This document shows positions 1-34,812 of a DNA stretch of 34,812 bases, in pieces (the first letter of the stretch is position 1; each line of letters opens with the position of its first letter). Made by a program: the position numbers and the translations under genes. The stretch is from positions 15,568 to 50,379 of the forward strand of contig NZ_RSCL01000045.1 of NCBI RefSeq assembly GCF_003991905.1, given 5' to 3'. Source of the DNA: Dulcicalothrix desertica PCC 7102. GTDB taxonomy: Bacteria > Cyanobacteriota > Cyanobacteriia > Cyanobacteriales > Nostocaceae. The notes under the pieces were generated by a model that worked only from the letters and a program-made list of their open reading frames with translations, was not told the origin of the DNA and searched no databases.

Positions 1-2280
1 CACTTTCTCTTTACTCCACACTTGTAGTAGTGGCGCCAACCAATTAAGCGTAACTTCTTGTAACGCACTCTTGGTTAATTGATTATTTTCCTGACGGAAC
101 ATACGGTTAGCAAATTTAGCTGCTTTTTTGGCTCCACCTTCCAGACCTTCTATACTTACTTTATCCGCAGATTCACGCAAGAAATCAAGGTCAGGCGCCA
201 AATCTTCTTCTAATTCCTCAATGATTTCGTTGAGGTTAGTCAACGGCGCCTCTGGTAACAACTCCCATATGGCGCCTGAATCAAAGCCGTATCTGCTTGG
301 TGGTTTTAATTCTTGACTAAGTAATGATTTGATAACCGCTAATACTGGGCGCAGTTCGTCCAATGCTTCAGGGTTTTCGAGCGCTAACTTCCCAATTGTT
401 TGGTTAAAATCACTCAAGGTGACAGAGATAGATGTATGAGTTTTTAAAAGTGTTGAAGCTTCGTCCCAAAATATCCCACACTCGGAGTATTTATATTCAT
501 CCGCAGATGGCAAACTATCAGGATGCGCGCGGATTTGTGGAGCCGCTAACACATGGCATCTTTGATTACGAAAACCATAGCCATAACCACTTGAAGTTTG
601 ACAAGCCTTGAACAATGAACATCCCATGCATATAGGGGAATCACCACTTTCAATATGGGGTACATTTTTAGCCTTTAGCTCATTAAACAAATGGTGACGG
701 TGACAATTCCCAGGTGTCAATTTAACGTTTAATTTCTTTCTAGGATGTACTAAAAAAGGCTCTCCACAAGCTGTTTTACGAGTATCATCTATTTCTAACC
801 CATTGTGACGAATTACCAAATCTACGTAGTTTTGTTCTACTGTTTCTGTAGTTGGGTTACGATGATCAGCAGCTAAATAATACAAATGTTCAAGATTAAA
901 GTCTTCTGCGACGGTTAAACTCGCAGAGTATGATTTACCTAAACCAGGTGCCGATAAATCCAAGATATCGTGCCATTTCTTCTCAACAGCCTCCAACCAA
1001 ATTGATAAGCGCTGCTCGTTGGTGTATTGAATTTTTGGTAAACCCAAATCAACATATTCTTCGGGAGTTGGTAAGTTACCGAGTTTGTAGATAAATACAG
1101 GCGCCTGTTTAACAGGAGATATGAGTGGCGCCTCCCCAAAACCCTTAAACTGTTTGGATAAATATTTTCCAAGCTTGCTTAATTCGTGCTTAATATCTTC
1201 AAGATGATTTTGGGTACTACGGTGTATAGCCTCAAACTGTGACCATGTAATTATGGAAATGGCGCCATCATACTCATCAGGGTCAGGTGTATCTTTGGTA
1301 TATTGTCCCCACCAACCAATTTTTAATTCGTAGCCAAGTTTCTTCAACAATTGCTGAGTACGGCGATATTGACGCATTACTTGACGGTTAGCAACGGCGC
1401 CTGCGTCAACTTCAAGTACTAATTCCTCAATGCCTCCAAGTTCAATTGCTAATTGGTCTAGGTAAGACTCCAAGGTTTGAGGAGAGCCAGCGAAGTTACC
1501 ACCTGCGGCGCCTATAACAATCTCTCCACGTTTCTGTGCTGTAATCCAAGGTTTTAGAATACCTTCATTAAGACGTATACGTTTGGATGTTGTGCCACTA
1601 ATCGGACGGCAACAAGTAAGAGGTAACTCTCCATTGGTTAGGTGGGGTGTTGGTCCATTGGGACGGTTTTTAGTTTGGGACGATGCCCACTTGTATTTAC
1701 CCTGTTCGGCATCATCTGAATGAAGCTGCCAAGCTATGATTTCTCCATTTGGCGCCCATACTGGACAAAGATAACCAGCTTGGGTGATTAAAGAATCTCC
1801 GTTAATCGAAACGCCTGCGAGTTTGTAATTAACCTGAAAATCAAGTTTTTGCCACTGTACGACACTTCTAAACATCCCCTGGTTGATTTGCTCCTCGGTT
1901 AATCCGCGATGTTGCAAATCTTCACGATGGTTAGAAAATAAATTTAACTGGGACAAAATTTGATTAATGGCGCCATCACGTTCAGATGTACTTAACAATC
2001 TTGGAAATTGTTTGCGTTCTGTGTCTTTACGAGCGCGCGCAATTTGTTCTAGTTCTTGGCGCCGTGCATTCAATTCATCCGTATTTGATTGTCTTTCTAC
2101 ATACATTCCCCATGAACCATCTTTGGTGTTTCCAATGAACTGGAGACCTGGTTGGTTCTGAGTTCCGTCTGCTCCCTCCATACACATATGGAGGTCATCG
2201 ACTTCACGACATTTACCTGTTGTGTCGCCACATAATATACAGGGATTATGGCGCCTTGTTGGAATTGGTTTATTAGGCAT
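1..2280 (-). CDS. Large plasmid Toprim/helicase-like protein (DUF3854/CyRepA-like), 3' end outside window
   Basis: I translated this by hand as one open frame of at least 760 codons running off the left edge. ATG at 2280 has AGGAG five bases upstream. Residues about 13-23 hold a CxxC plus Cys, like a small zinc ribbon. Near residues 200-330 there is a Toprim-like region (NEGILKPWITAQ, then VDAGAVANRQVM), as in DUF3854. A SF2 motif I variant (SAPGLGKS) and a motif II-like FWDEAS follow, with a Cys-rich segment between them (CHRHH, ICMGCSLFKAC). This is the architecture of cyanobacterial plasmid primase-helicase proteins and resembles the replication protein at 18268, so it may be a second replication initiator or a conjugation/replication helper. 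GGCGCC is dense here. Family assignment is by motif only. Confidence 0.75.
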   Translation of the reverse strand, partial: MPNKPIPTRRHNPCILCGDTTGKCREVDDLHMCMEGADGTQNQPGLQFIGNTKDGSWGMYVERQSNTDELNARRQELEQIARARKDTERKQFPRLLSTSERDGAINQILSQLNLFSNHREDLQHRGLTEEQINQGMFRSVVQWQKLDFQVNYKLAGVSINGDSLITQAGYLCPVWAPNGEIIAWQLHSDDAEQGKYKWASSQTKNRPNGPTPHLTNGELPLTCCRPISGTTSKRIRLNEGILKPWITAQKRGEIVIGAAGGNFAGSPQTLESYLDQLAIELGGIEELVLEVDAGAVANRQVMRQYRRTQQLLKKLGYELKIGWWGQYTKDTPDPDEYDGAISIITWSQFEAIHRSTQNHLEDIKHELSKLGKYLSKQFKGFGEAPLISPVKQAPVFIYKLGNLPTPEEYVDLGLPKIQYTNEQRLSIWLEAVEKKWHDILDLSAPGLGKSYSASLTVAEDFNLEHLYYLAADHRNPTTETVEQNYVDLVIRHNGLEIDDTRKTACGEPFLVHPRKKLNVKLTPGNCHRHHLFNELKAKNVPHIESGDSPICMGCSLFKACQTSSGYGYGFRNQRCHVLAAPQIRAHPDSLPSADEYKYSECGIFWDEASTLLKTHTSISVTLSDFNQTIGKLALENPEALDELRPVLAVIKSLLSQELKPPSRYGFDSGAIWELLPEAPLTNLNEIIEELEEDLAPDLDFLRESADKVSIEGLEGGAKKAAKFANRMFRQENNQLTKSALQEVTLNWLAPLLQVWSKEKV

Positions 2281-4034
2281 AGAGACTCCTGATAGGTGGA
2301 GTCAGTTAGTGCGCTTCTAAAAAAATGCCATGCTTTATCACTTATACAGATGACTTTGAGCCTTAATTTTTGTTAACGTTTTAGAACCTTTTATTTTGTA
2401 TGTTGGCTCTGGCATTTGGCATCTTTTTACCCAAAGGGATTAAAGCTTTGGGATGGGAGGCGCCCGCTAACCGACTTTTTTTTGCTTATTTTGTCAAGTT
2501 GGCTTAAGTAAATTTGTGGGTGCTGTATGGGTTCTACAGGGGCGCAGTTACCTCCATTTACAAATCTTGTGTTAAAAGCGCTTTCTTATTGCTCTGATTG
2601 ATTAGCGCTCTTGTTTTCATACACGCTCATCTGAGTATCTGAGTGGCACCTAAAAGTCATGCGTTTTTACGGTAAATTAGTGCGAAACATAAATTTACAT
2701 AAATGTTTGCCCTATTCAACGGCAAAAAGGCAACTAGAAGTGACACCAAAGTACACAAAATTGTCCAATCTCTAGTAAGATGTTGGTGTATGGAACAGAA
2801 GAGCGAATACGCCTCTTGGATTTACTATTCAATCCGCCTCCAAGCAGAATTCGGTAAATCTTAGGGTAATTTGCGCTTACTTCACAATTCAATATTTAAT
2901 TCTTTAGCGATTTTACAGCCAAAGTGTCACTCGTAGAACATCAGAGTAGATATTTTTGGCTGTAAATTTTTGTGTAGTTACGTTGCCCTCCTTGCATCTG
3001 TAACAAAATCTTTGTCGCAAACTTGATATTTTTGCATTAATGTAAGTTTAAATCATTTGATACTATTTGTGTACAAATTTTATTTTTTAATCCATAGAAA
3101 AAGCATTACAAAATCTCATGTAGCCAATATTACTATATACTTAGTTAATTAATACTGAAAGTGTGCAACATATTTAACATGCGCTTAAAAATAGGATATT
3201 TTCTACTGTTAGTTGACAGTATGGCGCTTATCCTCGTATTGAGTTGATGCTTATTTGTTGCCAACCTCTCAAATCATAAATCTGTCTATTGGTTGATTAG
3301 AACAGTGGTATTCATGTGTAACAATATATAGTTAACTAATAGATACGCTTTAAACTTATTGCAGCAAAATCAGCAATATTGTCACTTGCACCATTGACAT
3401 ACAACAGCGTTGGTGTAATACTCCTATTTCCAAAAATACCCAAAATTTTATGGGAACCTTAAGACGGCGCCACCTCAGAACCCATACTAATCAATCGACT
3501 CTTTAATTCACATATATCGAATTTTGAATGCCTGTAGGTAATGTTGAGCCAACAACAAGTGCTGCTATCCTCCCACATCAAGCCGGTAATACAACTTGTG
3601 CTATTGTGTGCCTTCATTTTGCCATAAAGAGTGTCGCTTAACGTTTTGTATCGAGCTTGAAGCGGCGCCGAACAGTCTGTTATAAAATACGACTAATTCA
3701 TTAACGTGATAAAGTTTTGTAATTTTGTAGCGCTAATATGACCTGATTTTTTCTCGGACAACCATAGGCGCCATGCAAGGTTAGTGTTGAAATGGAGATA
3801 TATTTATTTTTTGCTTTAGTAACACAAACACGCTGCTTTTCATTTAATTGGCGCCTCCGTCATCGCTCGTATACACCCCAAACATAAGTAACGGCGCCTT
3901 CGGTAATAAAAATTTATATAAATATTGTGGTTAGCGGTAAAACGAGTTTAAATAATGGCGCCAAAATCAGAGACGCAAGTTAAAATATCAGATAATCAAT
4001 TATTTTGGCAAAAGTAAGAACACAAGGGTTAAAA
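2281..4034. other. Long non-coding stretch with a 12-bp inverted repeat
   Basis: No convincing gene is visible. Perfect 12-bp arms (TTTACAGCCAAA at 2912-2923 and its complement at 2955-2966) form a hairpin with a 31-base loop, followed by TTTTTGTG, which could be a rightward terminator of a lost gene. A shorter hairpin lies near 2798-2820 (GAAGAG/CCTCTT). GGCGCC is absent from about 2464 to 3465 and common again from 3466. A 37-codon ORF near 3529 has no supporting features. Confidence 0.5.
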
Positions 4035-7440: not shown

Positions 7441-7539
7441 AATAAGTATATATATAAAATATAAATATACGCTCTGGGCGCCGTAATCGTTATATAAAAG
7501 ATAAATCCGCGCGCTTGTATATATATTTTTTATCATTGT

Positions 7540-7749
7540 GAGGCGCCTACTGATGCCAGCATTTGGAAGTCTGGAAATAATGAGCGAAATGTCATGCGTG
7601 GTGGTTCGTGGTTTTACAATCCACAGCTTTGCCGTTCAGCTTTTCGTTACTCCAACGACCTCAACAATTTTCTTGACGATATAGGTTTTCGTGTAGTATG
7701 TGATGTTGCAGTAAGAAATTCTCAGGCGCCTAATTCAAAGCTTGATTAA
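7540..7749 (+). pseudogene. C-terminal remnant of a formylglycine-generating-enzyme-like (FGE-sulfatase) protein
   Basis: The frame reads EAPTDASIWKSGNNERNVM then RGGSWFYNPQLCRSAFRYS and DDIGFRVVCDVA before a stop. This is the hallmark C-terminus of the FGE-sulfatase/SUMF1 fold (RGGSW, R.A.R, GFRVV), which in cyanobacteria is often fused to NACHT, caspase-like or kinase modules. There is no start codon or upstream domain: similarity begins at the GGCGCC at 7542. It is therefore a gene scrap. Its 3' end runs convergently into the 3' end of parB, overlapping it from 7730. Confidence 0.8.
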
Positions 7750-8845
7750 CAGCAGCCAATTTTTGTTCTAATAACTCCTTCAGTTCAGTTAACTGTTCTG
7801 TACTGGCGCCTTCTATAGTTCCCTGCGTGAGTACATTGATTTTTTGTATAACTACTTTAATCTCTTTCGATTCGGTCTTTTCTTTTTTGAGATACTTTGC
7901 TTTAATTTCCTTAATCAACGCGCGTGTTTCTGGTACAGTCAGATTTTTCTTTAAAACTTTATCAGTAGCCCACGCGCGTTCTTTTAATGCAGTATCTTCT
8001 AAAACCTTCAATGAAGTTGCAGTAAGTGTAGATAACGCTAATGCATGGGCGCCTTTCAATCCATTAGACCTAATTGCTTTTTTAAGGTCTTGGGGTAAAG
8101 ATAACATTGGCATTAAGTTAGTTCGGAAGGAAACGGGATTTAAACCGAGTTCGAGTAAAATTAGAAACATATCTTGTTCGGCACCTTCTACTTTCAACTC
8201 GCTTAAACCTTGTTGCTGCTCCTCACTACTAACATCAATTAATTTTGCTAGCTCCTTGACTTTACTATCACGCTCGATACGCTTAATTACGGTAGCAAGT
8301 GTTGTAGATATTTCCGACTCTTCAAAATCTGTAGTTTTGACTATTTCTTTGATAATAGCTTCTACTTTATCCAAGGGGTTCAAATCTTCAAAACCAAGAA
8401 ACGTTAATAGTGAAGATTGTTCTAAATCTTGTGGTTGGGGTACAATTACCGCACGTATTGTCTCCCATCCTAAAAAGCGCGCGGCTTCCCATCTCAGTTG
8501 CCCATCCAGCAACATATAACGATTATCTTTGTACGGTACTAAAATTACCGATGTTATTTGACCGTGCTTTTTGAGTAATCGTGCTTTATTTTGAATCGAG
8601 GCGCCTGTAATTGTTTGTCTTGGTTGGTTAGGGTTAGGGTCAATCAAATTCACATCAACTTCTACTTCCCCAGATGACTGTTGTATTTGACTACGTAACT
8701 TTTCTATTTCTGCTTCTAGTTCTGGCGCCGATACTGCACGTAATTGTTCAACTTCTGCTTGTAATTCGGCAATTTTCTTCTCCTGCTCGGTTTTTTGAAC
8801 CGCTCCCTTGAACTTGGTGTTTATTTGGGGTAAAGCGCGCGCCAT
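7730..8845 (-). CDS. parB: ParB-family plasmid partition protein
   Basis: A 371-residue ParB/RepB/Spo0J-type protein: the centromere-binding partner of ParA that sorts plasmid copies to daughter cells. Residues 17-57 are a coiled coil (EKKIAELQAEVEQL, then ELEAEIEKLRSQI). The ParB nuclease-like domain follows (DPNPNQPRQ at 69-77; box II as LLDGQLRWEAA at 112-122, replacing the usual GERRxRA). An all-helical, Lys-rich C-terminus ends in another coiled coil (LTELKELLEQKLAAVNQAL). It begins 12 bases after the parA stop, so the two form an operon. The 3' end has a degenerate second copy at 10733-10813. GGCGCC occurs at intervals through the gene. Confidence 0.88.
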   Translation of the reverse strand: MARALPQINTKFKGAVQKTEQEKKIAELQAEVEQLRAVSAPELEAEIEKLRSQIQQSSGEVEVDVNLIDPNPNQPRQTITGASIQNKARLLKKHGQITSVILVPYKDNRYMLLDGQLRWEAARFLGWETIRAVIVPQPQDLEQSSLLTFLGFEDLNPLDKVEAIIKEIVKTTDFEESEISTTLATVIKRIERDSKVKELAKLIDVSSEEQQQGLSELKVEGAEQDMFLILLELGLNPVSFRTNLMPMLSLPQDLKKAIRSNGLKGAHALALSTLTATSLKVLEDTALKERAWATDKVLKKNLTVPETRALIKEIKAKYLKKEKTESKEIKVVIQKINVLTQGTIEGASTEQLTELKELLEQKLAAVNQALN

Positions 8846-8857
8846 TATCTTCCACCT

Positions 8858-9643
8858 TTATTTTTGTTTGATTAATTTAACTACGTCTGATGCGATTTGG
8901 TCAAAGTCTTTACAAGCTGGATGTAACTGGCGCCATTTTTGGAGTGGGATACCATAAGCACTCGCATTCTTAAATTCGTTTGAACTCCTAACTGCTGGGA
9001 ACAGTTTGATTTCTAATTGTTCTGTGATACTGGGTAACTGTTCTAAATATTGACGGTGCATTGCTATTTTAGAATCATACATACTAGGTACAAATCCTAA
9101 AATTGGTGGTCGTGGTTCTAATTGTAATTCGTCTGCTGTTGTTACACACCACTCAACAAGTTCCGCTGAACCTGCAATCGCTTTCATCTCTAACTGAATA
9201 GGAACCAATACATGGGTTGCGGCTGCTAGAGCATTGACTGTTAACATGCCTAGTGTTGCTGGGCAATCAATAATAACTAAGTCGTGAGGTAAGGGATATT
9301 TTTTTAATCTATCGAAGAGTGTGTACTCTCCGCGCTTACGAATTACTAAGTCATTTGCTACTTCCGCTACTGTTGGATGTCCCTGGCAAACCTCAACTCC
9401 TGAGTCTTCCCAAACAGGCGCCAGTTTCCAATTTCCCTTAAAATCCTTGGATAATACTTGGGCAATTGTACTTGAAACATCGGCGCCTTCTAACCCACAA
9501 AAGACATCCAATGACCGTTGAGGGTCTAAATCTAAAAGTGCGACCGTTCGCTTACGACGACTTACTTCATACGCTAGATGCACACCAAGCGTTGTTTTAC
9601 CTACTCCACCTGCATTTGCGAGTATCGCTAATACTACTTGCAT
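8858..9643 (-). CDS. parA: ParA-family plasmid partition ATPase
   Basis: A 261-residue ParA/MinD-type ATPase. The Walker A loop at residues 10-18 is NAGGVGKTT, so the signature lysine of the usual KGGVGKT is Ala. Walker A' is DLDPQ at 38-42 and Walker B is VIIDCPA at 123-129. No N-terminal HTH is present, as in type Ib ParA proteins. ATG at 9643 (GGTGGA upstream) is preferred to a start at 9757 because the core fold begins MQVVLAILANAGG and the longer form would read through the palindrome at 9715-9736. It is first in the parAB operon. Expression is probably controlled at that palindrome. Confidence 0.88.
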   Translation of the reverse strand: MQVVLAILANAGGVGKTTLGVHLAYEVSRRKRTVALLDLDPQRSLDVFCGLEGADVSSTIAQVLSKDFKGNWKLAPVWEDSGVEVCQGHPTVAEVANDLVIRKRGEYTLFDRLKKYPLPHDLVIIDCPATLGMLTVNALAAATHVLVPIQLEMKAIAGSAELVEWCVTTADELQLEPRPPILGFVPSMYDSKIAMHRQYLEQLPSITEQLEIKLFPAVRSSNEFKNASAYGIPLQKWRQLHPACKDFDQIASDVVKLIKQK

Positions 9644-9714
9644 ATATTCAATATTCCACCTGCATGTAGCTTTATAAAGTACTACACTTTGGCGCAATTT
9701 GATATTATATTTTT

Positions 9715-9736
9715 TGTCGAATTTTAAAATTCGACA
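9715..9736. promoter_or_regulatory. Perfect 22-bp palindrome upstream of parA (operator or parS candidate)
   Basis: The half site TGTCGAATTTT is followed directly by its exact complement. It lies 72 bases before the parA start, where autoregulatory operators and centromere sites of plasmid par operons usually sit. A related core, GTCGAA joined to TTCGAC without spacer, occurs inside the ParB-like gene at 21805-21816. The binder is unknown; ParB or ParA would be the obvious test. Confidence 0.65.
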
Positions 9737-9795
9737 GGTGTATACCGAATTGCTCATACCACGTATACTATATGTTTCTCTAGTCTGATAATGTA

Positions 9796-10402
<607 letters not shown>

Positions 10403-10732
10403 GTGTAGCTAATCTTATTGGAAGCAAAAGAAAATTTGACCTAGCAATTCGCAATTTCCCGGTATAGGGACATAAACGCAATTGAAAATTATATTTGTGA
10501 ATTGCTTTACATGTGCGTTCACGCAGTGTTCCGCAGGAAAGCAAATTTATTAATTGTATGCTGGGTACAAGCCCACACCTTCATGTCCCTAAGCAGGGAA
10601 AATCGTAGATTTGGACGACCCTTTAACCAATTACTTAGATAACTTAATGCGGCGCCCCGCATTTATGCGCGCGGAGTCGCGATTTTTATGCCAAGGTTCA
10701 TAAAGCTTCATGAGGCTGTCGCATTTACAAAC
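10403..10732. other. Spacer without genes
   Basis: This holds GCAATTC-type repeats near 10444, an 8-bp inverted pair (AGGGACAT at 10466-10473 and its complement at 10583-10590), and a short hairpin around GGCGCC at 10651 (ATGCGG/CCGCAT). No coding signal is evident. Confidence 0.4.
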
Positions 10733-10813
10733 GGCGCCTAACCCAAAGCTTGATTAACAGCAGCTAATTAAAGTTCTAACAATTCCTTGAGTTCAGTTAG
10801 CTGTGTCGGCGCC
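10733..10813 (-). pseudogene. Duplicated scrap of the parB 3' end
   Basis: About 75 bases match the last 80 bases of parB (7725-7810): the shared run CAAAGCTTGATTAACAGCAG is followed by further matches with scattered differences and a 3-base gap. Both copies are bounded on both sides by GGCGCC (7725 and 7805; 10733 and 10808). It has no start codon and no upstream part, so it is a duplicated or left-behind segment. Confidence 0.8.
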
Positions 10814-10834
10814 AAATTTTATGTCATACACGAA

Positions 10835-11281
10835 TCAGATTCCAAACCAACCGCCTGTATCGCCACCAGCCCATCCGGCGCCTTTTGCTGTAGGAAATGT
10901 TTGATTACAAAGGTCTTTAAATTCTTGAGCAGCACTTATATCTTGAGCTTCATAACCAATTGGATGAAATATTCTTCCAATATATTTACCTTGGAGGCGA
11001 ATTTGACCCATTACATAAATATCACCACCTACAGAATAAATGCTTTCTTCTTTGTTTCGAGAATAGCAAGCAATGTAACCACCATCACTTCCTTGGTATT
11101 TATTAACCGTTGGCAGTACTCTTTCTTCGTACCCAGGAGCATTCCAATTAACTACACTACCTTCTGCTCCAACGTAAACTTTAAAATCCTCTGGCAACCA
11201 ATAGTTCATTTCTTCTGCCTTTGCAATTCCTGACAAACATAGCAACACTGTAGCTGTAATTGTAGTAATTTTCTTATACAT
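10835..11281 (-). CDS. Secreted hypothetical protein
   Basis: A 148-residue protein starting at ATG 11281 with a clear Sec signal peptide (KKITTITATVLLCLSGIAKA, cleavage after AKA). The mature part is Gly- and Tyr-rich with about three Cys, and ends GWAGGDTGGWFGI. No family recognised. The motifs suggest a small periplasmic or extracellular beta-rich protein. An in-frame TTG at 11293 is a weaker start. The next gene upstream (11344) runs the same way, about 60 bases away. Confidence 0.65.
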   Translation of the reverse strand: MYKKITTITATVLLCLSGIAKAEEMNYWLPEDFKVYVGAEGSVVNWNAPGYEERVLPTVNKYQGSDGGYIACYSRNKEESIYSVGGDIYVMGQIRLQGKYIGRIFHPIGYEAQDISAAQEFKDLCNQTFPTAKGAGWAGGDTGGWFGI

Positions 11282-11343
11282 GTGTTTAATCAAACATAAT
11301 CTTTTTATTTTATACTGAAAAATGCTGAAAGTTCAGGCGCCTA

Positions 11344-11670
11344 TCATTCATCACTCCACTCACAAGTTGGGCACATGAACTGTTCAGCTAAAAGTTCTTG
11401 ATTAGAAAACTTGTAATTACAATTCGGACAGGCGCCTGTAAATAGTGGGTGTTTATCAAGTAGTACTAGCTTTTCTTCAATAGTGCGATTTTGTAATGGT
11501 TGTTTGATAACTTGCCCGTTATAAAGGGCGCCGATTTCAGGAGCGTAATATATACATGAATTTCCCTTTACTCCATCAGGGAAAACTTCGCAAAAGAAGA
11601 AAGGATTGTTGCAATAAAAGCGGCAATTCGGACATTCGGGTAATTGGCGTACCGCACGGGGCTTAATCAT
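11344..11670 (-). CDS. Zinc-ribbon-like hypothetical protein
   Basis: A 108-residue protein if started at ATG 11670. A GTG at 11766 would add 32 residues that look non-conserved. It holds three Cys pairs: ECPNCRFYC near the N-terminus, ACPNCNYKF near residue 80, and MCPTCEWSDE at the C-terminus, plus two further Cys between. This suggests two zinc ribbons. Function is unknown. GGCGCC occurs inside it at 11431 and 11527. Confidence 0.6.
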   Translation of the reverse strand: MIKPRAVRQLPECPNCRFYCNNPFFFCEVFPDGVKGNSCIYYAPEIGALYNGQVIKQPLQNRTIEEKLVLLDKHPLFTGACPNCNYKFSNQELLAEQFMCPTCEWSDE

Positions 11671-11766
11671 AAGTAGTAGATGTGTTTTATCTACCGTAAC
11701 ATTTGAAACATCCAGATGTCTGTTGGTAGAAACACGCGAACACAGTTTTATAGAAGAACGCCGCAC

Positions 11767-12371
11767 GTGTTATGTTCAAAGCACTTATCAATTAAACGGC
11801 GCCCCTAATTTATTATCAATAATCATTGCTTATTGACATATGGTTCGATTCAAAATGACCCTACTTCGCATACCTTGTTAGGATATATGAACAAGCAGAG
11901 GAGCCTTGGTGCCGCAGGGGATGTTGAAATGAGGTCAAACGCAGTGCTAGAGGGAGATTAGCGCCGTAGTGAGGAGTATATCTGATAAGCGCGATATCCT
12001 ACAGTTAGATGTAACTAAGGTGTAAGTAAGGTTATACACGATTGACGCGCGCTAACTATATTGTGATAGTTAAATACTAAATTAAAATTATAATTTGGTT
12101 GACAAACATTTGGAATAGAGAAGCAAGTTTAAAGTTAGGTGTAACTAAGGTGCAACCTTAGTGTTATGTTGAGTAAAAGTAGTGTGGAATACAACCGCAA
12201 TACGGAAATATTGATTTTCAAGCAAGAATAATTTATAAGACGGTGCCAACTGTAAATCAAAACTAGCTGTTCTAATAATATAAGTAGAATGATTGGGAGC
12301 CTACTAATGTACTTGAACTATAATCAAAAGAGTTATTATTTTTATCATAGCAAGCGTGCGAATGGCGCCTA
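11767..12371. other. Intergenic region with a 20-bp direct repeat
   Basis: A 20-mer (AGTTAGrTGTAACTAAGGTG, r = A or G) occurs at 12003-12022 and 12133-12152, 130 bases apart. The second copy forms a hairpin, CTAAGGT/ACCTTAG. A TTGACA at 12099 has no convincing -10. A 24-codon ORF at about 11887 (starts MNKQRSLG) is not supported. Confidence 0.5.
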
Positions 12372-13010
12372 TTATAAGTATATTTTCATAAATTTATATT
12401 CTTGGCGCGTGCGATAAGAATTTGTTTGGTAACATGATTCAATGATAAGATTTTTTTTGACATTAATCTCTGCTACATAGTCTACTGTTCCAACAATACA
12501 ATCGATTGAAAATTTGACATTATTAACTTCATTATCTACTACATAATGACCACTAGAAGAATCTTCATAATCTTTTTCAAACCAGGCTAAAAATGGTTTT
12601 GGTGCATCAAATATACATACTTCAATGACAGTATAGTCAGGGTAGAATTTGATATAATGATAATAATTACCTGCTCGATGTTGATATGCACCGTCAAAAC
12701 GAATTAAATAATATTTTTCACAAAACTCCTTTAATTTAGCTTTAATCTTCGGCGCCTTAATATTGCCCAAAATCTTATAAGCCTGGGTTCTGACTAATAC
12801 ATCAGAATCATCTAAAGCTTGAATAACAAGGCTTAGTCCTTCACGCCCGTATTTAATAGCTTCAGTTAAAGCTGCAATTCGATGCTCAACAACTGGCGCC
12901 CATAACCGTTGCTTAACTCCTTGTATTCCACCTAAAACTACGGCGCCTGTATTAATATCCTCATTCCCTATAACTGCGTCGTATTTACCAGGCTGATTAA
13001 TATTGTTCAT
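12372..13010 (-). CDS. HEAT-repeat-type cyanobacterial protein
   Basis: A 212-residue protein. Residues 8-85 carry the cyanobacterial block YDAVIG...GAVVLGGIQGVKQRL, then RIAALTEAIKYGREGLSLV and IQALDDSDVLVRTQAYKIL, which forms HEAT-like helical pairs used for protein contacts. The C-terminal 120 residues are Tyr-rich and beta-like, ending YRTRQEYKFMKIYL, with no family recognised. In other cyanobacterial proteins this N-terminal block precedes variable sensor or effector parts. No ribosome binding site is obvious. Confidence 0.7.
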   Translation of the reverse strand: MNNINQPGKYDAVIGNEDINTGAVVLGGIQGVKQRLWAPVVEHRIAALTEAIKYGREGLSLVIQALDDSDVLVRTQAYKILGNIKAPKIKAKLKEFCEKYYLIRFDGAYQHRAGNYYHYIKFYPDYTVIEVCIFDAPKPFLAWFEKDYEDSSSGHYVVDNEVNNVKFSIDCIVGTVDYVAEINVKKNLIIESCYQTNSYRTRQEYKFMKIYL

Positions 13011-13215
13011 AACATAAATCTAATTATTATTTTTATATAATAACAGGTGACGAAAATAATTTTGTTATAAAATAATATAGCCTCATTGACAATCTAAATT
13101 ATATGTAAAATTATATATAAAAATAGTAGATTTTTTTGAATAAATGAGTAATAATATTATCTGTGAAGATAAAAATCCTCACATCAAATCTTGAACAATA
13201 AGGAGGTAATATAAA

Positions 13216-13434
13216 TTGACTTCTAAGGGCAACAATGGGCATCGTAAAGATGTCAAGCCCAACGACCTCGAAGTTTTTGAGCCTGCATTTATGCCTGGTG
13301 AAGAAGATGATGAGAAAGTTGGGTATTTCAAAGCTGACATCAAGGGAGAGGAAGGAGAGATTGTAGATAAACTCCCTACAGAGTTAACAAACGAACCTTC
13401 AACTCCCAACGACGAAAGCTCCGAAGACTCATAG
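13216..13434 (+). CDS. Small acidic protein with TTG start
   Basis: 72 residues, strongly acidic toward the C-terminus (GEEDDEK, KGEEGEIVDK, DESSEDS) and probably disordered. The start TTG 13216 is set by a perfect AGGAGG at 13201-13206, nine bases upstream, which is the best ribosome site in this part of the window. A strong terminator follows at 13465-13493. Function is unknown. High translation, small size and an isolated transcription unit suggest a regulator, antitoxin-like protein or chaperone substrate, but no family was recognised. Confidence 0.7.
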   Translation: MTSKGNNGHRKDVKPNDLEVFEPAFMPGEEDDEKVGYFKADIKGEEGEIVDKLPTELTNEPSTPNDESSEDS

Positions 13435-13464
13435 GAGTCGTTACTGGTAATCAAATATACGGTT

Positions 13465-13493
13465 CCTCAACTCTGACCAGTTGAGGTTTTCTT
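13465..13493 (+). terminator. Rho-independent terminator
   Basis: Perfect 8-bp arms CCTCAACT and AGTTGAGG with a 6-base loop are followed by TTTTCTT. It ends the transcript of the small acidic gene, 30 bases after its stop. Confidence 0.85.
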
Positions 13494-13514
13494 GATTCTA
13501 TAATTATTATAACG

Positions 13515-13838
13515 ATGAAAGATATTAACGATACGACGGTAGTTTTACCTGATTACATTCGCATAATCGAGCATAAGCCTTCAGGATGGCTATTCAAAGC
13601 GATGAAGCCATTTTCAACTTACAAGAATGTGGATATTAACAACTTTGAATTACTGTATGGGATTAATAAGCAGCAAATTTTGATTGAATTATTCCGTACA
13701 AGTGGTGGTAAACTTGGTTACTACATTGCTGACCTGCGCCGTAAAAAGTATTATTACTGCGGCGCCGAAGCAGAAATGGTTAAGCAAAAACTTTTAGAAA
13801 TCGGTATTGGTCGTGTTGACCCTATGGAAAATGCATAA
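13515..13838 (+). CDS. Hypothetical protein, 107 residues
   Basis: A soluble alpha/beta protein of 107 residues with an aromatic-rich middle (KPSGWLFKAMKPF, GKLGYYIADLRRKKYYYCG). No family recognised. It starts at ATG 13515, 22 bases after the terminator, so it needs its own promoter in the AT-rich gap or read-through. GGCGCC at 13761 encodes Gly-Ala. Confidence 0.6.
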   Translation: MKDINDTTVVLPDYIRIIEHKPSGWLFKAMKPFSTYKNVDINNFELLYGINKQQILIELFRTSGGKLGYYIADLRRKKYYYCGAEAEMVKQKLLEIGIGRVDPMENA

Positions 13839-13898
13839 AATATTAATAACTGTTAACTTTTAGATAGGTTGAAGTGGATTAAGGGTAGGCACCGTTTT

Positions 13899-14069
13899 CT
13901 ATACTACCATCAGGCGCCAGCCTCCATTACTTGTTGAAACTTCAGGATAATGTATTGTCCGTAATGATATCCACTCCTTGATAATTGCTTTTAAGCGCGC
14001 GTCTGCCAAAAGATAAGACAATCCTGTGTCCGCGAACGCTTCACCTGCATCGGCGCCGATATAAATCAT
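13899..14069 (-). CDS. Small protein, 56 residues
   Basis: ATG 14069 has AAGGTGA seven bases upstream, so I prefer it to an upstream in-frame start at 14132. The product begins MIYIGADAGEAFADTG and contains LLADARLKAIIKEWISLR, an amphipathic helix. No family recognised. It converges with the gene ending at 13838. Confidence 0.5.
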   Translation of the reverse strand: MIYIGADAGEAFADTGLSYLLADARLKAIIKEWISLRTIHYPEVSTSNGGWRLMVV

Positions 14070-14352
14070 GATTATCACCTTTACCGTAAATAATTTTGTA
14101 ATTCTACTATTTCTGCTGTTGAATATTAACAAGAAGGCGTCGATAATGCAGGCAAAAGAACCCTCAAAGTCCGCGACATTCGCCCAATGAATTTACGTGC
14201 AAAATAGCGATTATAAAATAATACTTGGCGCCATGAATCAAAATATAACAGGCTAATCCATAGCACTCACTTCGGAGGCGCCGATAAAAATATATAACAG
14301 TTAGGGGATATGAGGGGAGTTAATTCACCCCCATATACTAAAAACTTTTAAA

Positions 14353-14700: not shown

Positions 14701-14791
14701 CTAAAACCTCCGTGCGAGTTTGGATACCCGTAACTTCAGTTGGGGGAGGAAAAACGAGTCAGCAGAATAAATTCTGCTTATTATTTTGGCT

Positions 14792-16075
14792 TTAGTAAGC
14801 ATAAGAATAACCATCTTTCTTGTGGACACTTTTACAGTTTTTATAACTAACTCCTTGAACTAATCCTATTTTGGTCAAGATGTTGAAACTACCAGTAGTT
14901 CGGACTGCAACGCGACCTATATAGATACCGACCTTCTTACCTTTTGTTACAACTGCTTTAACAATATCGCCAGTTTGGAAACCATATACATACTTGTTTC
15001 TTGGCACATATCTTGATGGAAAACCATATTTATCTGTTCTACACATTTGGCGTGTACCATGCCCTTTTGCTGTAATAATTAATGGTTTGATTCCCTTAAT
15101 TATTAATTTAGGAGTTGATTCGCCAACACATGCAGCATCAACCCAGTGTGCTTTTTCTAGTCCCTGATTAGTCCGGTTAAATTGAGTTAATCCTCCACTG
15201 CCTGTTTCAACTGGTAAACCAGCTTTCTTCAGTGCATTCAATAATGTAAATCTAGTTGTATTTACTGCCGCTGCTGAAGCTAAAGGTTTTTTAGCTTGCT
15301 TTAATATTAATTCTAGTTTTTGAGGTTCTTTGTTCAAGAAATCCTTTATGTCTTTAGTTCCTTTTTTTAAGTTACATTTCTGACAAGTTAAGGTTAAATT
15401 CGATATTCTGTTACTACCTCCTTTTGCCTTGGCGTGAATGTGTTCTACTTGTAGGGGTACATGCTCTACACCACAATAAGCGCATTTTCTACCCCATTTT
15501 TCTAACAAGTATTGTCGTGTTTCGTAACCAGCTAGTGTTCCTTGTTGATATTCAATTCCAGATATTTCTGGATTCTCCATTTTCTGCATATCAAACCTTA
15601 CTAGCTCTTGACTAATGTCACTAATATTCGCAATTTTTTGTAATCGTTTTACCCAGGTAATTATGTTATCAATACGGCTCTGTAGGCTTGGTGGAATCCA
15701 ACCTTCTTTTCGTCTGCGGTTATTAAATCTTGGGGCACGATATCTTATTTTTCTATTTCTACGTCCTCTGCGTAATTGCCTCCTTGAAGTTAATGCTTCT
15801 CTAATTTGAAAGCCTCTATGTTGTATTTCTGCTGCAAAAACTACTTCGCCAGTCGTATCGTTTACCAATGTCAAACCAGTTGTTTTTGCACCGGGGTCAA
15901 GCTTCAAGCGCAAGGGTTGAACTTCTACTTCTGGTTTCGCTTCCTTTAAGATTAAAGTGAAAGGAAAGCGTCGCCATATTGCTGCTTTCTTGTTCTTTAA
16001 AAGTTGTCTTGCTTGTGCTGGATGTATTGGATTTAACGGTTGCTGATTCGTATCAAGTAAAAATATTTTGGACAT
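14792..16075 (-). CDS. iscB: IscB, RNA-guided HNH/RuvC endonuclease
   Basis: A 427-residue IscB, the family from which Cas9 arose; it uses an omega RNA to cut matching double-stranded DNA. The PLMP-type N-terminus is FLLDTNQQPLNPIHPAQA (5-22). RuvC-I has D60 (LKLDPGAKTTG). The Arg-rich bridge helix is at about 97-125. RuvC-II has E157 (SQELVRFD). The HNH domain spans about 195-245, with CxxC at 198/201, EHIH at 211-214 and CQKC at 231-234. RuvC-III has H310/D313 (KAHWVDAACVG). All key residues are present, so it looks functional. ATG 16075 is chosen over 16087 because GGAGGG ends four bases upstream of it. Confidence 0.93.
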   Translation of the reverse strand: MSKIFLLDTNQQPLNPIHPAQARQLLKNKKAAIWRRFPFTLILKEAKPEVEVQPLRLKLDPGAKTTGLTLVNDTTGEVVFAAEIQHRGFQIREALTSRRQLRRGRRNRKIRYRAPRFNNRRRKEGWIPPSLQSRIDNIITWVKRLQKIANISDISQELVRFDMQKMENPEISGIEYQQGTLAGYETRQYLLEKWGRKCAYCGVEHVPLQVEHIHAKAKGGSNRISNLTLTCQKCNLKKGTKDIKDFLNKEPQKLELILKQAKKPLASAAAVNTTRFTLLNALKKAGLPVETGSGGLTQFNRTNQGLEKAHWVDAACVGESTPKLIIKGIKPLIITAKGHGTRQMCRTDKYGFPSRYVPRNKYVYGFQTGDIVKAVVTKGKKVGIYIGRVAVRTTGSFNILTKIGLVQGVSYKNCKSVHKKDGYSYAY

Positions 16076-16087
16076 ATGTCCCTCCAT

Positions 16088-16345
16088 TACTGGGTGATGT
16101 TAGCTTCGTTAATGTTCTAAACGCTTGTTAGGTTAGCCACACTTCCTTAACCCGATAAAGATGTTTAATGACTAACGACATTGCTGAATGGATACCCACC
16201 TATAGTGGACGGACTAGCTACGCATCCGTAGGTGTCGTGACGATTAGAACGTAGTCAGTTAAGACTTAAACTGGTCAGCTATTCCTAAAGTCAAAAGGCT
16301 TCTAGCAAGCTAGATGCCCCGTCTCTTTAGAGCGGGGTTGCTGAC
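16088..16345 (-). ncRNA. Omega RNA (HEARO RNA) of IscB
   Basis: This region directly upstream of iscB, read on the minus strand, has the expected folded character. Near its 5' end is an AACCCCG...CGGGG hairpin (arms within 16317-16337). Then come a TCTAGC/GCTAGA hairpin (16301-16314), CTACG/CGTAG (16218-16231), and near the 3' end GGTTA/TAACC around AAGGAAGTGTGGC (16131-16152). HEARO RNAs are known to lie just upstream of IscB and carry the guide at their 5' end, so the guide would be read from about 16346-16362. The exact ends are inferred. Confidence 0.8.
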
Positions 16346-16476
16346 TAGACATCTCCTATTAAATTATTTGCTACTATAGAAAATTATATCATGTTAATGC
16401 ATAATTATTAATTATTTAATTGCTATTAATGTAATTTAAATATTAGCAAATATTATTTCATTTATATTGTTTTTTT

Positions 16477-16597
16477 CTAGAGCGGTAAAACTTGCTAGAT
16501 ATCGCCTGGAAGCATAGTAAACTCGTTTGATATTTTCTATGGCGCCTACGTAATTAAGCTTTTAATTTCACCTCTCAAGTTAGTTTTGCCGCTCTAG
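16477..16597. mobile_element. 120-bp inverted-repeat element (MITE-like)
   Basis: Left end CTAGAGCGGTAAAACTTG (16477-16494) is matched inverted by the right end at 16576-16597 (CAAGTTAGTTTTGCCGCTCTAG reads 22 bases; one substitution and a small insertion separate the arms). It encloses 80 bases with one GGCGCC and no ORF. T-runs flank both sides, so a large terminator hairpin is an alternative. No clear target duplication. Confidence 0.5.
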
Positions 16598-16605
16598 TTT
16601 TTTTT

Positions 16606-16646
16606 AAATATCCTATCTTACATATATATAATAAAGTAGGATATTT
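16606..16646. terminator. 10-bp inverted repeat between genes
   Basis: AAATATCCTA (16606-16615) pairs with TAGGATATTT (16637-16646) across 21 bases. It lies 18 bases past the stop of the gene ending at 16665 and next to an 8-T run, so it may serve as a terminator. The stem is AT-rich and weak. Confidence 0.45.
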
Positions 16647-16664
16647 AAGTGCTGCAATTTCTAA

Positions 16665-18184: not shown

Positions 18185-18268
18185 ATGAATTCTAGCGTAG
18201 TACACCCTGAAAGTACAATACGTACACCTGTTGCTGTTAGCTTAAAAAATGAAGGAGGCGCCATATAA
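18185..18268 (+). CDS. 27-residue leader peptide coupled to the replication gene
   Basis: ATG 18185, preceded by AAGGA, opens 27 codons (MNSSVVHPESTIRTPV...GGAI) whose stop TAA shares its last A with the ATG of the replication gene (TAATG). The replication gene's own ribosome site (AAGGAGG) lies inside this ORF, so ribosomes finishing the leader would re-initiate. Translational coupling through a leader is well known for plasmid rep genes such as repA of IncFII. Whether it is translated is not shown. Confidence 0.6.
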   Translation: MNSSVVHPESTIRTPVAVSLKNEGGAI

Positions 18269-21255
18269 TGCTAGCCGTCTCCCTTGAAAACCCAGTTAAT
18301 CAGGCTTTTTCAGTCAATCCTTACATTACCAAAGCTCACTTCAAAGAGTGGACAGAAAGTGGCGTTGACCCAGAAATAATCAAGCTGAACGTCAAATCCC
18401 TTGTAGGGGATGAGGTTTACCAATATTTGATCCCCGACCCCTCTTCCGTTACAAAGCGCGTCCACCCAGATGCTCAATGGCGAAGTATCCGCGCGCGTTA
18501 TGGTCATCTAGAAAATGGTGGCTGGTGGGTTGACGGCGCCGACCCGTTGAATGGTTACGTCATAAATCAATGGGGAAGCTTCAAACCAGATACTCCACGT
18601 AACAAGCACAACGGATTTAAAGCCGTTGAGAATAAAAAGATTAAATATGAACATCCGTTTGGTGTTCTTATGCGCGCGATTTTCCTCAACGTCCCCTTAC
18701 ATATTTGGGAGAAAATCAGTAAGCGTTATGATGTTCCACTGCCCCCGTCCATTAAGAGGGATGTATATAGTTATTCAGATTCAGTGGACGAGTATATTCC
18801 TTCCATCAGTTTTTGGGAGTGGGTACAAGTAAACAATATCCCTGTATCAATAGTGGAAGGGGCGAAAAAAGCAGGCGCCTTATTAACAGCGGGATATGTT
18901 GCAATCGCGTTACCTGGAATATTCGCAGGTTACAGAAAGTCGAGAATTTTAGAGAACGGGGAAATTAGTGAACGCGCGCTTATTCCCGAATTACAACACT
19001 TTTCCACACCTGGGCGGGAAATAAATATTTGTTTTGACTACGAAGATCGTCCTGTTCAAATCAGAAGTATGGATGCGGCCATTAACGGGTTGTACTTCCT
19101 ACTTTTAGAGAAGGGCTGCGATACTCGGATTACTTGCCTTCCTGGTAAAGAGAAAGGAGTGGACGATTTTATAGTGGCTCATGGAGTAGGCGCCTATGAC
19201 AAAATTCATGCTGCTTTAACTTATGACCAGTGGATAGCATGGGGTTTATCGAGGCTTACAGGCGTTTCTGTAACAATTAATCAAGAATTTTTGGGCGCCA
19301 TGCGGCTTCCAAATGGAGAAAAGTTAGTCGCTATCAAATCTCCAAAAGGCACAGGTAAAACAGAATTGTTGATTAGTATTGTCGCTCTACGAATCAGCTT
19401 GGGACTTCCTACCATACTAATTACCCATAGAATCCAGTTGGGTCAATCAATATGCGGGCGTATTGGGCTGGATTACGTTGCAGAAATCAACGACGGCAAT
19501 AGAACTTATTTTGGTTTTGGGTTGTGTGTTGATTCCTTACACCCTGAAAGTCAGGCACAGTTCAACGCCCAAAATTGGAAGGATGCTCTTGTGATAGTGG
19601 ACGAGTGCGAACAAGTGTTTTGGCACGCCCTTACCGCGTCCACAGAAATTAAAAAACACAGAACAGAAGTAATTGACCAATTAGGCGCCCTGTTTAGAAA
19701 CGCGCTCACTTCAAATGATGGAGGCGTGATTTTACTAGACGCTGACCTAAGCAACTTGTCCATTGATTTTGTATTGGGTCTTGCTGAGGTTGATATAAAA
19801 CCTTGGATAGTCCTTAATGCGTGGAGACCAATTAATGGGCGCCTGGTAATCTCGTATGAGAAAGCAACTCAAATGTTGGCTGTTTTGGAGGACGAAATCC
19901 ATGCTGGTAAAAAAGTATTCGTTATTACACAGTCCCAGAAAGCAAAATCTAAGTTTGGAACGATTAATTTAGAAGCGCGCTGGCGCCAGTTATTCCCCAA
20001 TTTAAAAATATTGCGTATTGATTCGGACTCTGTACGCGAACCAGGTCATCCGGCATTAGGATGTATATCAAAACTCAACCAAATCCTTACACAATACGAC
20101 ATTGTGATATGCTCGCCCACAATTGAAACAGGCGTAAGCATTGATATTCAAGGACATTTTGCTTCTGTTTGGGCATTTTTCCAAGGAGTTAGCCCTGTAA
20201 ATTCTGCTTGCCAAGCGGTTGCAAGATTGCGTGAACTTGTACCACTGCATGTCTACGCTGCGTCACGTGGTCTAAGTTTTGCTGGTAATCAATCCACCAG
20301 TTATAAATCCCTTATTTCTGGACAGAACAAGGTTTTCAAATTTTCTCTCAGCCTGATTGGTTTTGATGGAAATAACTATACCATCAACGGTACTGCTCTT
20401 ACAATTTGGGGAAACATGGGCGCCCGTGTCAACGCTGGTATGAAAGATTACAACACTTCAATTCTTGCAGCCCTGGAGTTAGAAGGGCATACAGTAATTG
20501 AGGCGCCAGAAGAAAATCTCCCTTCGGAGTCTACAGAAAAGCAAATCGCTGGTGAACTCAAAGCAATGAAGGAGAACAACTACATTGATTACTGTAACCA
20601 AGTATCAGAACAAGATATCGGTGAAATGACCATTTCTGAGTATGAAGCGCTACTTACAAAGAAGGCTAAGACTCAACAAGAACGTTACATAGAGAAGAAA
20701 TATGAATTGTCGCTGCGTTATTCAGTGGACGTTGACGCTGATTTGGTAGCTGCTGATGATGAGGGCTTTTACCCTGCAATAAGACTGCATTACTATCTAA
20801 CTGTCGGGCGCCCGTTCCTACTTGAGCGTGATAGAAAAGTTGTTGAGAAAATCCTCGCTGAAAGCTCAAACCGAGTATTCATACCCGATTTCAACCGTAG
20901 CACCTGGATTGCGAGTGTTGCAACACTGGAACTATTAGGTATTGGGGCAATACTTTCTCAAACTGACAGAGTATTCCGTGGAAATGATGAAGATATGCAA
21001 GTTTTATTGTCTAAAGCATTACAGTATCGCAGTGAGATTAAAGACTTATTAGGGATAACAATCTCTAAAAACGCCACACCCATACAAGTTCTAAGACAAA
21101 TCATCAAAAAACTTGGGCTAAAACTCAAAGCTGGTGGACGTGACGGCGCCGGAGATAGGCAGCGATTCTATACCATCAAAAACCCTAACGATGGGCGCCT
21201 AGAAATATTCTCCAAGTGGCTAGCCAAGGATGAGGCGAATGACAACGCTCATTAG
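18268..21255 (+). CDS. CyRepA1-type plasmid replication protein (DUF3854 Toprim plus SF2 helicase)
   Basis: A 995-residue replication initiator of the cyanobacterial CyRepA1 kind. A DUF3854/Toprim primase-like region holds VEGAKKAGALLTAG (Glu near 197), then ICFDYED and KGVDDFIVAHG. A SF2 helicase follows: motif I SPKGTGKT (358-365), motif II IVDECEQ (about 445), ETGVSIDIQGHF, and motif VI QAVARLREL. The C-terminal 250 residues are helical and uncharacterised. It probably melts and primes the origin. The start is fixed by AAGGAGG upstream and by overlap with the leader ORF. It is dense in GGCGCC (about 15 sites), so it is old in this replicon. The larger protein at 1-2280 shares its layout. 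Confidence 0.88.
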   Translation: MLAVSLENPVNQAFSVNPYITKAHFKEWTESGVDPEIIKLNVKSLVGDEVYQYLIPDPSSVTKRVHPDAQWRSIRARYGHLENGGWWVDGADPLNGYVINQWGSFKPDTPRNKHNGFKAVENKKIKYEHPFGVLMRAIFLNVPLHIWEKISKRYDVPLPPSIKRDVYSYSDSVDEYIPSISFWEWVQVNNIPVSIVEGAKKAGALLTAGYVAIALPGIFAGYRKSRILENGEISERALIPELQHFSTPGREINICFDYEDRPVQIRSMDAAINGLYFLLLEKGCDTRITCLPGKEKGVDDFIVAHGVGAYDKIHAALTYDQWIAWGLSRLTGVSVTINQEFLGAMRLPNGEKLVAIKSPKGTGKTELLISIVALRISLGLPTILITHRIQLGQSICGRIGLDYVAEINDGNRTYFGFGLCVDSLHPESQAQFNAQNWKDALVIVDECEQVFWHALTASTEIKKHRTEVIDQLGALFRNALTSNDGGVILLDADLSNLSIDFVLGLAEVDIKPWIVLNAWRPINGRLVISYEKATQMLAVLEDEIHAGKKVFVITQSQKAKSKFGTINLEARWRQLFPNLKILRIDSDSVREPGHPALGCISKLNQILTQYDIVICSPTIETGVSIDIQGHFASVWAFFQGVSPVNSACQAVARLRELVPLHVYAASRGLSFAGNQSTSYKSLISGQNKVFKFSLSLIGFDGNNYTINGTALTIWGNMGARVNAGMKDYNTSILAALELEGHTVIEAPEENLPSESTEKQIAGELKAMKENNYIDYCNQVSEQDIGEMTISEYEALLTKKAKTQQERYIEKKYELSLRYSVDVDADLVAADDEGFYPAIRLHYYLTVGRPFLLERDRKVVEKILAESSNRVFIPDFNRSTWIASVATLELLGIGAILSQTDRVFRGNDEDMQVLLSKALQYRSEIKDLLGITISKNATPIQVLRQIIKKLGLKLKAGGRDGAGDRQRFYTIKNPNDGRLEIFSKWLAKDEANDNAH

Positions 21256-24072: not shown

Positions 24073-24551
24073 TTGCTGAACAATTGTGCCATTTTGATCT
24101 TTATGGTTACAAGCACATGATTACATATAATTAACAATGACAGGCGCCTATTACCTATAATTAAAGGCGCCTAAATTTTTTTAATAGGTGGAGCATTAAA
24201 ATGTAATCGTTAATACTTGTTACTGTCTCAATAATTGTTCTGCTCATACACCTACTAAAAAACCTGAAGGGCGTAGTTTGCCTTTATGGCGATAAAAACT
24301 GGTAATAACTTATAAAATCATTACCACCATCAGTTACGGAGCCACGGTGAATGCCCCATTACTCGTAATCCTTGCTCGTTCTCGTTCAAGTGGAACTTGA
24401 CCTTCAGGCGCCGTAACGTGATACATATATATAACCACAATGCTGCACAATATATAAAGACTGGCGCCTATAATTAGGTACTTTTGTATCTATGAGTAAT
24501 AGTGTCAATTGGTGTATATGATGGAACCGCTCCAATAAAACGAACAACAAT
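24073..24551. other. Intergenic region
   Basis: No gene found. It holds four GGCGCC sites and a GGTAAT/ATTACC hairpin near 24301-24326. Confidence 0.4.
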
Positions 24552-27740: not shown

Positions 27741-27744
27741 ATTA

Positions 27745-34650: not shown

Positions 34651-34688
34651 CTGGGGTTGCCATGTTGCTTTGCCCCGTGCAACCCCAG
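34651..34688. terminator. Hairpin with perfect 10-bp GC-rich arms
   Basis: CTGGGGTTGC (34651-34660) pairs with GCAACCCCAG (34679-34688), 18-base loop. There is no T-run after it. It may be a terminator or a structured RNA. Confidence 0.45.
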
Positions 34689-34812
34689 CCGACTGAATCG
34701 CTGCGAGTGTGTCGGTGCCATTTTCAACTTTACGTTATATCCCATATTCCGCACTTCAGAATGTCGCATAAAATATTACATAAATACGTACTGGCATTAG
34801 TAAATAAACATA

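Follow-up and report, generated by a model that had tools for sequence, protein, structure and literature searches.

GGCGCC as the alternate highly iterated palindrome of a Calothrix clade, on chromosome and plasmids

The function of HIP1 (GCGATCGC), a highly iterated palindrome (HIP) of cyanobacteria, is still not agreed on, decades after it became known. Here we analyze a stretch of 34,812 bases from Dulcicalothrix desertica PCC 7102 (G000:C45:15568-50379, the terminal part of a 50,379-bp contig), referred to below as the window, in which a different palindrome, GGCGCC, is strongly iterated and HIP1 is absent. We find that GGCGCC is the alternate HIP of the entire Calothrix clade to which this strain belongs, that it occupies both chromosome and plasmids, and that it replaces HIP1 there. 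An earlier note on the window, made from the letters alone, had proposed such a replacement and had offered a different methylase, a repair bias or a nucleoid code as possible reasons.

The note had put the count at about 130 where fewer than two were expected, had seen no HIP1, and had placed the sites in codons of every frame and in spacers, all of which is borne out. At a GC content of 37.9%, 1.6 GGCGCC are expected in the window from composition and 3.0 from dinucleotides, and 100 dinucleotide-preserving shuffles gave a mean of 3.12 (standard deviation 1.79, maximum 7), against 132 observed; copies of GCGATCGC number 0. Successive 5-kb bins hold 27, 17, 19, 12, 18 and 18 sites, and the final 4.8 kb hold 21. 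On the contig the sites fall in all three codon phases (43/15/22), and spacers hold sites too. In the 24 open reading frames (ORFs) of the window (gene calls here are ORFs of at least 120 codons, not annotated genes) there are 51 GGCGCC, compared with 3.6 in synonymous-codon shuffles (maximum 9, n = 200), and 18 stretches of 20 kb, sampled from large contigs, hold 471, compared with 27.3 (maximum 40, n = 200). Neither base composition nor codon use accounts for the excess. The grounds on which the note would have given up the excess, a count near the Markov expectation or an origin in codon and dinucleotide bias, were not found, except that a maximal-order Markov model expects 92 sites; this value has absorbed the motif itself, because 132 of the 209 GCGC in the window sit within GGCGCC. 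The sites are not copies of one repeat: their flanks are identical at 0.272 of positions versus 0.262 at random places, and flank identity exceeds 0.7 in 1 of 8,646 pairs. Sequence context past the six letters is weak, with G scarcer directly before GGCGCC (31 of 264, compared with 100 for A). Among related words in the window, GACGCC, GTCGCC, GCCGCC, AGCGCC, TGCGCC and CGCGCC occur at 0.2-0.6 of first-order expectation, GGGGCC at 0, GGAGCC at 1.1 and GGTGCC/GGCACC at 1.85. The entire genome (11.42 Mb, 109 contigs) contains 19,393 GGCGCC (1.70/kb) and a single copy of the reversed control word, while HIP1 occurs 58 times versus 62 for its control word.

Are these properties peculiar to one strain? 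The comparison covered 217 family genomes, of which 7 belong to the genus of the window and 210 do not. All seven genus members carry 7,475-20,380 GGCGCC per genome (about 1,150-1,710 per Mb), versus 0-1,053 in the 210 others, and the highest of the latter has 1,270 copies of the reversed control word beside its 1,053 GGCGCC. HIP1 is found 31-163 times in the same seven genomes (control word 37-75) and is much higher in other family genomes, the lowest being G182 (30), G194 (535), G191 (574) and G184 (990). The most distant of the seven species-level genomes are about 78-84% identical in aligned stretches; members named by the genome scan of the Genome Taxonomy Database (GTDB) are Calothrix sp. 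HK-06, FI2-JRJ7, PCC 7716, C42_A2020_038 and NIES-4105. Of 138 loci surrounding one homologous gene we kept the best 80; among these, the five named genus loci hold 62 GGCGCC and 0 HIP1 in 35.6 kb, whereas the 75 other loci hold 14 GGCGCC and 376 HIP1 in 525 kb. GGCGCC therefore has these marks of the HIP class: it is a GC-rich palindrome far over expectation, with low HIP1 and 1,000-2,000 sites per Mb, a range that the plasmid contig exceeds (3,570 per Mb); it is not HIP1 itself, the word differing from GCGATCGC.

We also searched a phylum sample of 386 genomes for independent origins. One candidate, G284 (9,489 GGCGCC versus 2,450 of the control word), is not a clear case, with 55% GC in 8 kb. 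G420, of the same order and another family, has 2,493 versus 38 in 6.2 Mb and may carry an independent, weaker GGCGCC HIP. A weaker excess over the control word is seen elsewhere, e.g., in genus g57 (396-486 versus 34-85). Within the family, G194 (326 GGCGCC versus 9), one of the genomes low in HIP1, may be an intermediate or another case of an alternate HIP; 40 kb from two of its contigs contain no iterated GC palindrome.

The contig of the window is a plasmid, since it encodes a CyRepA1-family replication protein together with ParA and ParB (Table 1). A CyRepA1 homologue lies on plasmid2 of Calothrix sp. NIES-4105 and is 89% identical (tblastn to AP018292.1). GGCGCC density on the plasmid contig is 3.57/kb versus 1.66/kb over the 18 stretches of 20 kb from large contigs (360 kb in total). 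For NIES-4105, two 50-kb stretches of the related plasmid2 give 2.7 and 3.0/kb, one stretch of plasmid1 gives 1.1/kb, and chromosome-type anchors of the species give 1.5/kb. A doubled density on this plasmid family is thus observed in two species. The four-sequence alignment of the plasmid (3.8-4.8 kb) is too small for counting gains and losses. The earlier note had assigned the replacement of HIP1 to "this replicon"; the replacement stands, and its limitation to the replicon does not, since GGCGCC is iterated across genome and genus.

Spacing was examined in 15 of the 18 chromosomal stretches and in 80 anchors, three stretches with GATC-rich islands being left out. The sites are spaced nearly at random. 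In bins of 1, 2 and 5 kb the counts come close to a Poisson distribution, with a variance-to-mean ratio of 0.87-1.15 in the chromosomal samples, and the anchors are slightly under-dispersed (0.87-0.93). Pairs closer than 100 bp are modestly fewer than random (11.4% versus 15.5%, and 9.4% versus 14.4%). Loss of a site is independent of neighboring sites: 55 of 465 (11.8%) are lost where the nearest neighbor is closer than 150 bp, 93 of 705 (13.2%) at 150-500 bp, and 21 of 185 (11.4%) at 500 bp or more. Near-random spacing and neighbor-independent loss argue against a spacing code, selection for coverage and a target density of one site per kb, and leave a process local to the site. The nucleoid code that the note had considered finds no support here.

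Turnover within the genus was followed in 12 anchor regions (80 stretches). Aligned pieces shorter than 300 bases or in minority orientation were left out, and we counted columns and words with at least four of five close species, while the count of deep-branch presence patterns required three. The five close species are 94-96% mutually identical; G062 (taken as NIES-4105) and G063 are more distant. All ten two-against-three groupings of the five species occur, through recombination or recurrent change, and their terminal branches are therefore partly population-like. Sites are rarely lost on the deep branches: the stem leading to the five close species lost 3 of 71 versus 193 of 575 (34%) for other five-GC words, and the G062 branch again 3 of 71 versus 149 of 531 (28%). 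Fourfold degenerate third positions tell the same story. On the G062 branch, 6 of 149 changed inside sites versus 217 of 817 outside (Fisher's exact test, p-value = 1E-11), and on terminal branches 93 of 2120 versus 1978 of 20038 (p-value = 3E-19), roughly a twofold protection. In presence patterns, 22 sites occur only in the five-species clade, a number that may include double losses, and 6 are missing only there; the corresponding numbers for G062 are 4 and 3. Pairwise conservation (G000 and G060 share 84% of sites versus 71% for other GC words) was dropped as evidence of selection because a scarcity of gains raises pairwise identity even if losses are neutral.

How does HIP1 behave at a similar depth? 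Its conservation beyond expectation has reportedly been described before. Our control consisted of five species from one HIP1 genus, about as similar to each other as those above (20 stretches at 4 anchors out of 8 planned), a small sample of 47 sites with 2 single-step losses and 0 gains. HIP1 departs in 4 of 225 cells (1.8%) versus about 16% of matched 8-mers, whereas GGCGCC in its own genus departs in 126 of 1,278 (9.9%) versus 13-15% for matched words. HIP1 is tightly kept at a depth where GGCGCC is only mildly kept.

The recent losses of GGCGCC bear a distinct footprint. C to T at the inner C makes up 65 of 124 young losses (expected share 0.32, p-value = 3E-6); given context and codon position, this change occurs at 1.38 times expectation and all other changes at 0.59. 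A looser count attributes 47 of 82 losses to it, with 6-14 in each of the five genomes. Losses per genome match those of ordinary singletons (0.9-1.5%; χ2 test, p-value = 0.67), and together with a footprint present in all five genomes this speaks against sequencing error in one assembly. The excess is what methylation at GGmCGCC would give, and points to it indirectly. The inner C is the position whose methylation the model of Elhai (2015; Life 5:921, PMC4390886) needs and could not test.

We searched for genes of such a methylase. PF00145, the family of 5-methylcytosine (m5C) methyltransferases, has 13 matches in the genome of the window and 89 in the genus, some of which are halves of one gene; 37 of the 89 were clustered for comparison. 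The L018 and L020 types are m5C methyltransferases by both TIGR00675 and PF00145. The closest solved relatives of L020, which has two copies in the genome of the window, are the HaeIII and HhaI enzymes, and that of the L012 type is the HaeIII methylase. Our guess is that L018 and L020 are the two GRCGYC enzymes that Elhai names for PCC 7103. As a sufficient cause, L020 was rejected: 24 other family genomes carry it and have at most 326 GGCGCC. A methylase may be needed, and none of those compared is sufficient or specific to the clade.

The explanation that we rank as most likely, with a confidence that stays short of even, is that methylation of GGCGCC and a site-local restoring bias together maintain the sites. 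The inner C would be methylated (GGmCGCC) by an m5C methyltransferase and would for that reason be hit by deamination. Mismatch repair or biased gene conversion favoring the GmC strand, as in the model of Elhai (2015), might then remove most losses before fixation and favor the rare new sites (8 observed versus 1.3 expected). In contrast to that published version, our data show no set-point at a density of about one per kb. We prefer the view that losses arise at a rate near or over the normal one and that selection or biased repair eliminates or reverses them before they grow old. That losses are young draws weak support from the scarcity of shared ones. Losses shared by two species stand to singletons as 10:44 versus 274:658 for other five-GC words (p-value = 0.09), and 2 of the 10 lie on the three best-supported groupings versus 138 of 274 (p-value = 0.10); combined, 2 of 54 losses are shared on supported groupings versus 138 of 932 (p-value = 0.025), although neither component is significant alone. 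A recent cessation of maintenance in the five species is possible.

Several observations weigh against maintenance by methylation and a restoring bias. Single-step losses exceed gains in single species by 75:5, or 124:8 with stricter windows, the most extreme ratio (median 1.0) of the 718 words that had 60 or more sites and 20 or more events. Whole-site loss on terminal branches is only mildly below that of matched words (126 of 1278 versus 2221 of 16279), and sites that are also kept in G062 and G063 are lost there no less often (24 of 320 versus 113 of 1808, p-value = 0.39). Strict single-step events on deep branches are few (3 gains and 0 losses on the stem, 1 gain and 3 losses for G062). 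Taken by themselves, the terminal branches indicate decay, a reading that the deep branches contradict. Maintenance of this kind does not account for the twofold density on the plasmid. On the side of the enzymes, no m5C methylase group peculiar to the genus appears among the 37 of 89 PF00145 matches compared, m4C (N4-methylcytosine) genes not having been searched. The L012 type is present in 7/7 genus genomes and L017 apparently so (judged from gene length and placement; five named members), and both are common in other Nostocales; L020 is present in 6/7, was not found in G061, and the 24 of 210 other family genomes with it lack a GGCGCC HIP. Finally, the tests run fit selection and biased repair alike. 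Of the causes put forward in the earlier note, a different methylase is thus supported only indirectly, by the inner-C excess, and no genus-specific m5C enzyme appears among those compared; a repair bias, like selection, fits the deep conservation.

Selection on each individual site, for instance for protein binding, as a repair or recombination signal, or as an uptake signal, would purge losses and favor gains with no special repair. We rank it second and consider it somewhat unlikely, though a serious contender. It accounts for the same deep-branch data, and the tight conservation of HIP1 even on terminal branches looks like selection for a related role. Near-random spacing and neighbor-independent loss, however, leave no room for a coverage-type function, and the twofold density difference between replicons and the weak context past the six letters also count against it.

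A relic, in which GGCGCC was built up in the genus ancestor by a process that has stopped and is now eroding, at least in the five close species, was our first reading of the turnover data; the deep-branch tests moved it behind maintenance, and it now ranks third, as a rival that we retain but consider rather unlikely. The strong surplus of terminal losses is what it predicts, and the polarity of these losses is right, since in 38 of 50 with G062 aligned the site is present in G062. The control-like terminal loss of sites kept in both distant species also agrees with it. So do five islands bearing HIP1 and many GATC (runs of at least three HIP1 with gaps below 5 kb, found in nine stretches; Table 1), which apparently were imported from HIP1 cyanobacteria. 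Together these islands contain 3 GGCGCC in 22.9 kb (0.13/kb); their DNA has therefore not been converted, at least not quickly. The stretches of contig C19, with four HIP1 in 15 kb and not qualifying as islands, have about 1 GGCGCC per kb. A relic is made less likely by the low loss on both deep branches, by stem patterns of the gained type outnumbering those of the lost type (for G062 they are nearly equal), by third positions that change less than half as often inside sites even on terminal branches, and by the few losses shared on supported groupings.

Elhai's ratchet as published holds that GmC-directed mismatch repair makes sites until about 1 per 1,000 bases is reached, whereupon the bias vanishes. 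The genome density of 1.70/kb is within the published range, the inner-C signature fits the methylation that the model needs, and close pairs are somewhat scarce on the chromosome, with slight under-dispersion of the anchors; yet plasmids of two species reach 2.7-3.6/kb, neighbors have no effect on loss and strong regularity is missing, which makes it improbable. Very-short-patch (Vsr) repair would make and keep the palindrome by correcting T:G mismatches where the site is methylated. It agrees with over half of recent losses being C to T at the inner C and with GGTGCC having become GGCGCC 4 times at 11 places versus 0.5 expected, but is very improbable given that the genome of the window has no match to PF03852 (a search positive in 5 of 14 known genomes, as a control) and that GGTGCC/GGCACC is not depleted in the window (14 versus 7.6 expected).

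In Table 1 we list the features located. Some other words are also unusual in the window: GATC (10 versus 121 expected from composition) and GGCC (2 versus 45) are strongly avoided, and CGCGCG is the second overrepresented palindrome, with 21 copies versus 1.6 from composition and 5.0 at maximal order. The density of CGCGCG is highest in the G062 anchors, at 809 per Mb. For CCGCGG, the 11.4-Mb genome of the window has a single copy and each of the other six genus genomes has 2-8. The window also carries an IscB gene with its RNA directly upstream, and two dispersed repeats; copies of the first, 81-90% identical, are found in many places in at least three genus genomes (G000, G062, G065).

Table 1. 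Features located in the window (plain positions) and on other contigs of the same genome (positions with contig)
Feature	Position	Strand	Evidence
GGCGCC, 132 sites; no GCGATCGC	1..34812	.	count over entire window
ParB-like partition protein	7730..8845	-	PF02195, 47.4 bits
ParA-like partition ATPase	8858..9757	-	PF13614, 99.5 bits; NF041546, 75.2 bits (below its cut-off of 180)
IscB RNA-guided nuclease gene	14792..16087	-	NF040563, 454.6 bits
HEARO (omega) RNA	16094..16345	-	Rfam RF02033, 130.8 bits
Second dispersed repeat	about 16469..16607		
CyRepA1-family plasmid replication protein	18268..21255	+	NF042913, 417.7 bits (cut-off 200)
Dispersed repeat, ~117 bp	24291..24407		
HIP1/GATC island, almost no GGCGCC	G000:C7:24674-35253		
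HIP1/GATC island, almost no GGCGCC	G000:C25:97606-101749		
HIP1/GATC island, almost no GGCGCC	G000:C13:285511-287774		
HIP1/GATC island, almost no GGCGCC	G000:C6:16028-21088		
HIP1/GATC island, almost no GGCGCC	G000:C12:140888-141781		

A clade in which one HIP word gave way to another that then persisted amounts to a natural experiment, for the process that produces HIPs must have changed on the genus stem or earlier. Our data leave fewer options: the excess does not come from base or codon bias, and sites are lost singly, regardless of neighbors. GGCGCC also shows more recent losses than HIP1 at similar depth. It is tempting to put the parts together into a single history, which we offer tentatively and with less confidence than maintenance as such: the HIP may have switched once, from GCGATCGC to GGCGCC, in one clade, been inherited stably by its species and plasmids, and been kept by site-local repair or gene conversion that reads GmC at GGmCGCC. 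If site-local restoration of this kind is true, HIPs would be no code but a side effect of a repair rule. In practice, the densities of GGCGCC and HIP1 may mark the provenance of recently imported DNA.

As a phenomenon, GGCGCC as an alternate HIP is not new; it has been known since 2015. According to Elhai (2015), Calothrix PCC 7103 and 19 kb of strain D253 have it as their alternate HIP, and in PCC 7103 it is the most overrepresented six-letter word of 97 genomes. Two GRCGYC methyltransferases are predicted there for PCC 7103, GmC-directed mismatch repair is proposed as the source of HIPs, and alternate HIPs are argued to be sporadic, not persisting in clades. Contrary to the last view, this alternate HIP did persist in a clade, in seven species-level genomes. 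A search by title within open-licence PMC found no other paper on GGCGCC in cyanobacteria or Calothrix and no tests of its conservation, turnover or spacing. The extension to the whole clade and to plasmids, the deep conservation, the inner-C footprint and the near-random spacing are new here.

The GGCGCC of PCC 7103 and D253, as described by Elhai, resembles ours in word and organism group, in the near absence of HIP1, in the rarity of GATC and other GRCGYC words, and in a genome-wide density of 1,000-2,000 per Mb; it differs in scope, one genome and 19 kb there compared with 7/7 species-level genus genomes plus plasmids here. Two other alternate HIPs given by Elhai, rCCGGy of Oscillatoria PCC 10802 and GCsGC of Cyanothece PCC 7822, are likewise GC-rich palindromes whose numbers go up where there is little HIP1, with a predicted methyltransferase that could modify them; words and hosts differ from those of GGCGCC. 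HIP1 itself is also a GC-rich palindrome, present roughly once per kb in most genomes of the family and conserved in alignments; it is a different word, and between close species it departs in 1.8% of cases (20 stretches, one genus) compared with 9.9% for GGCGCC.

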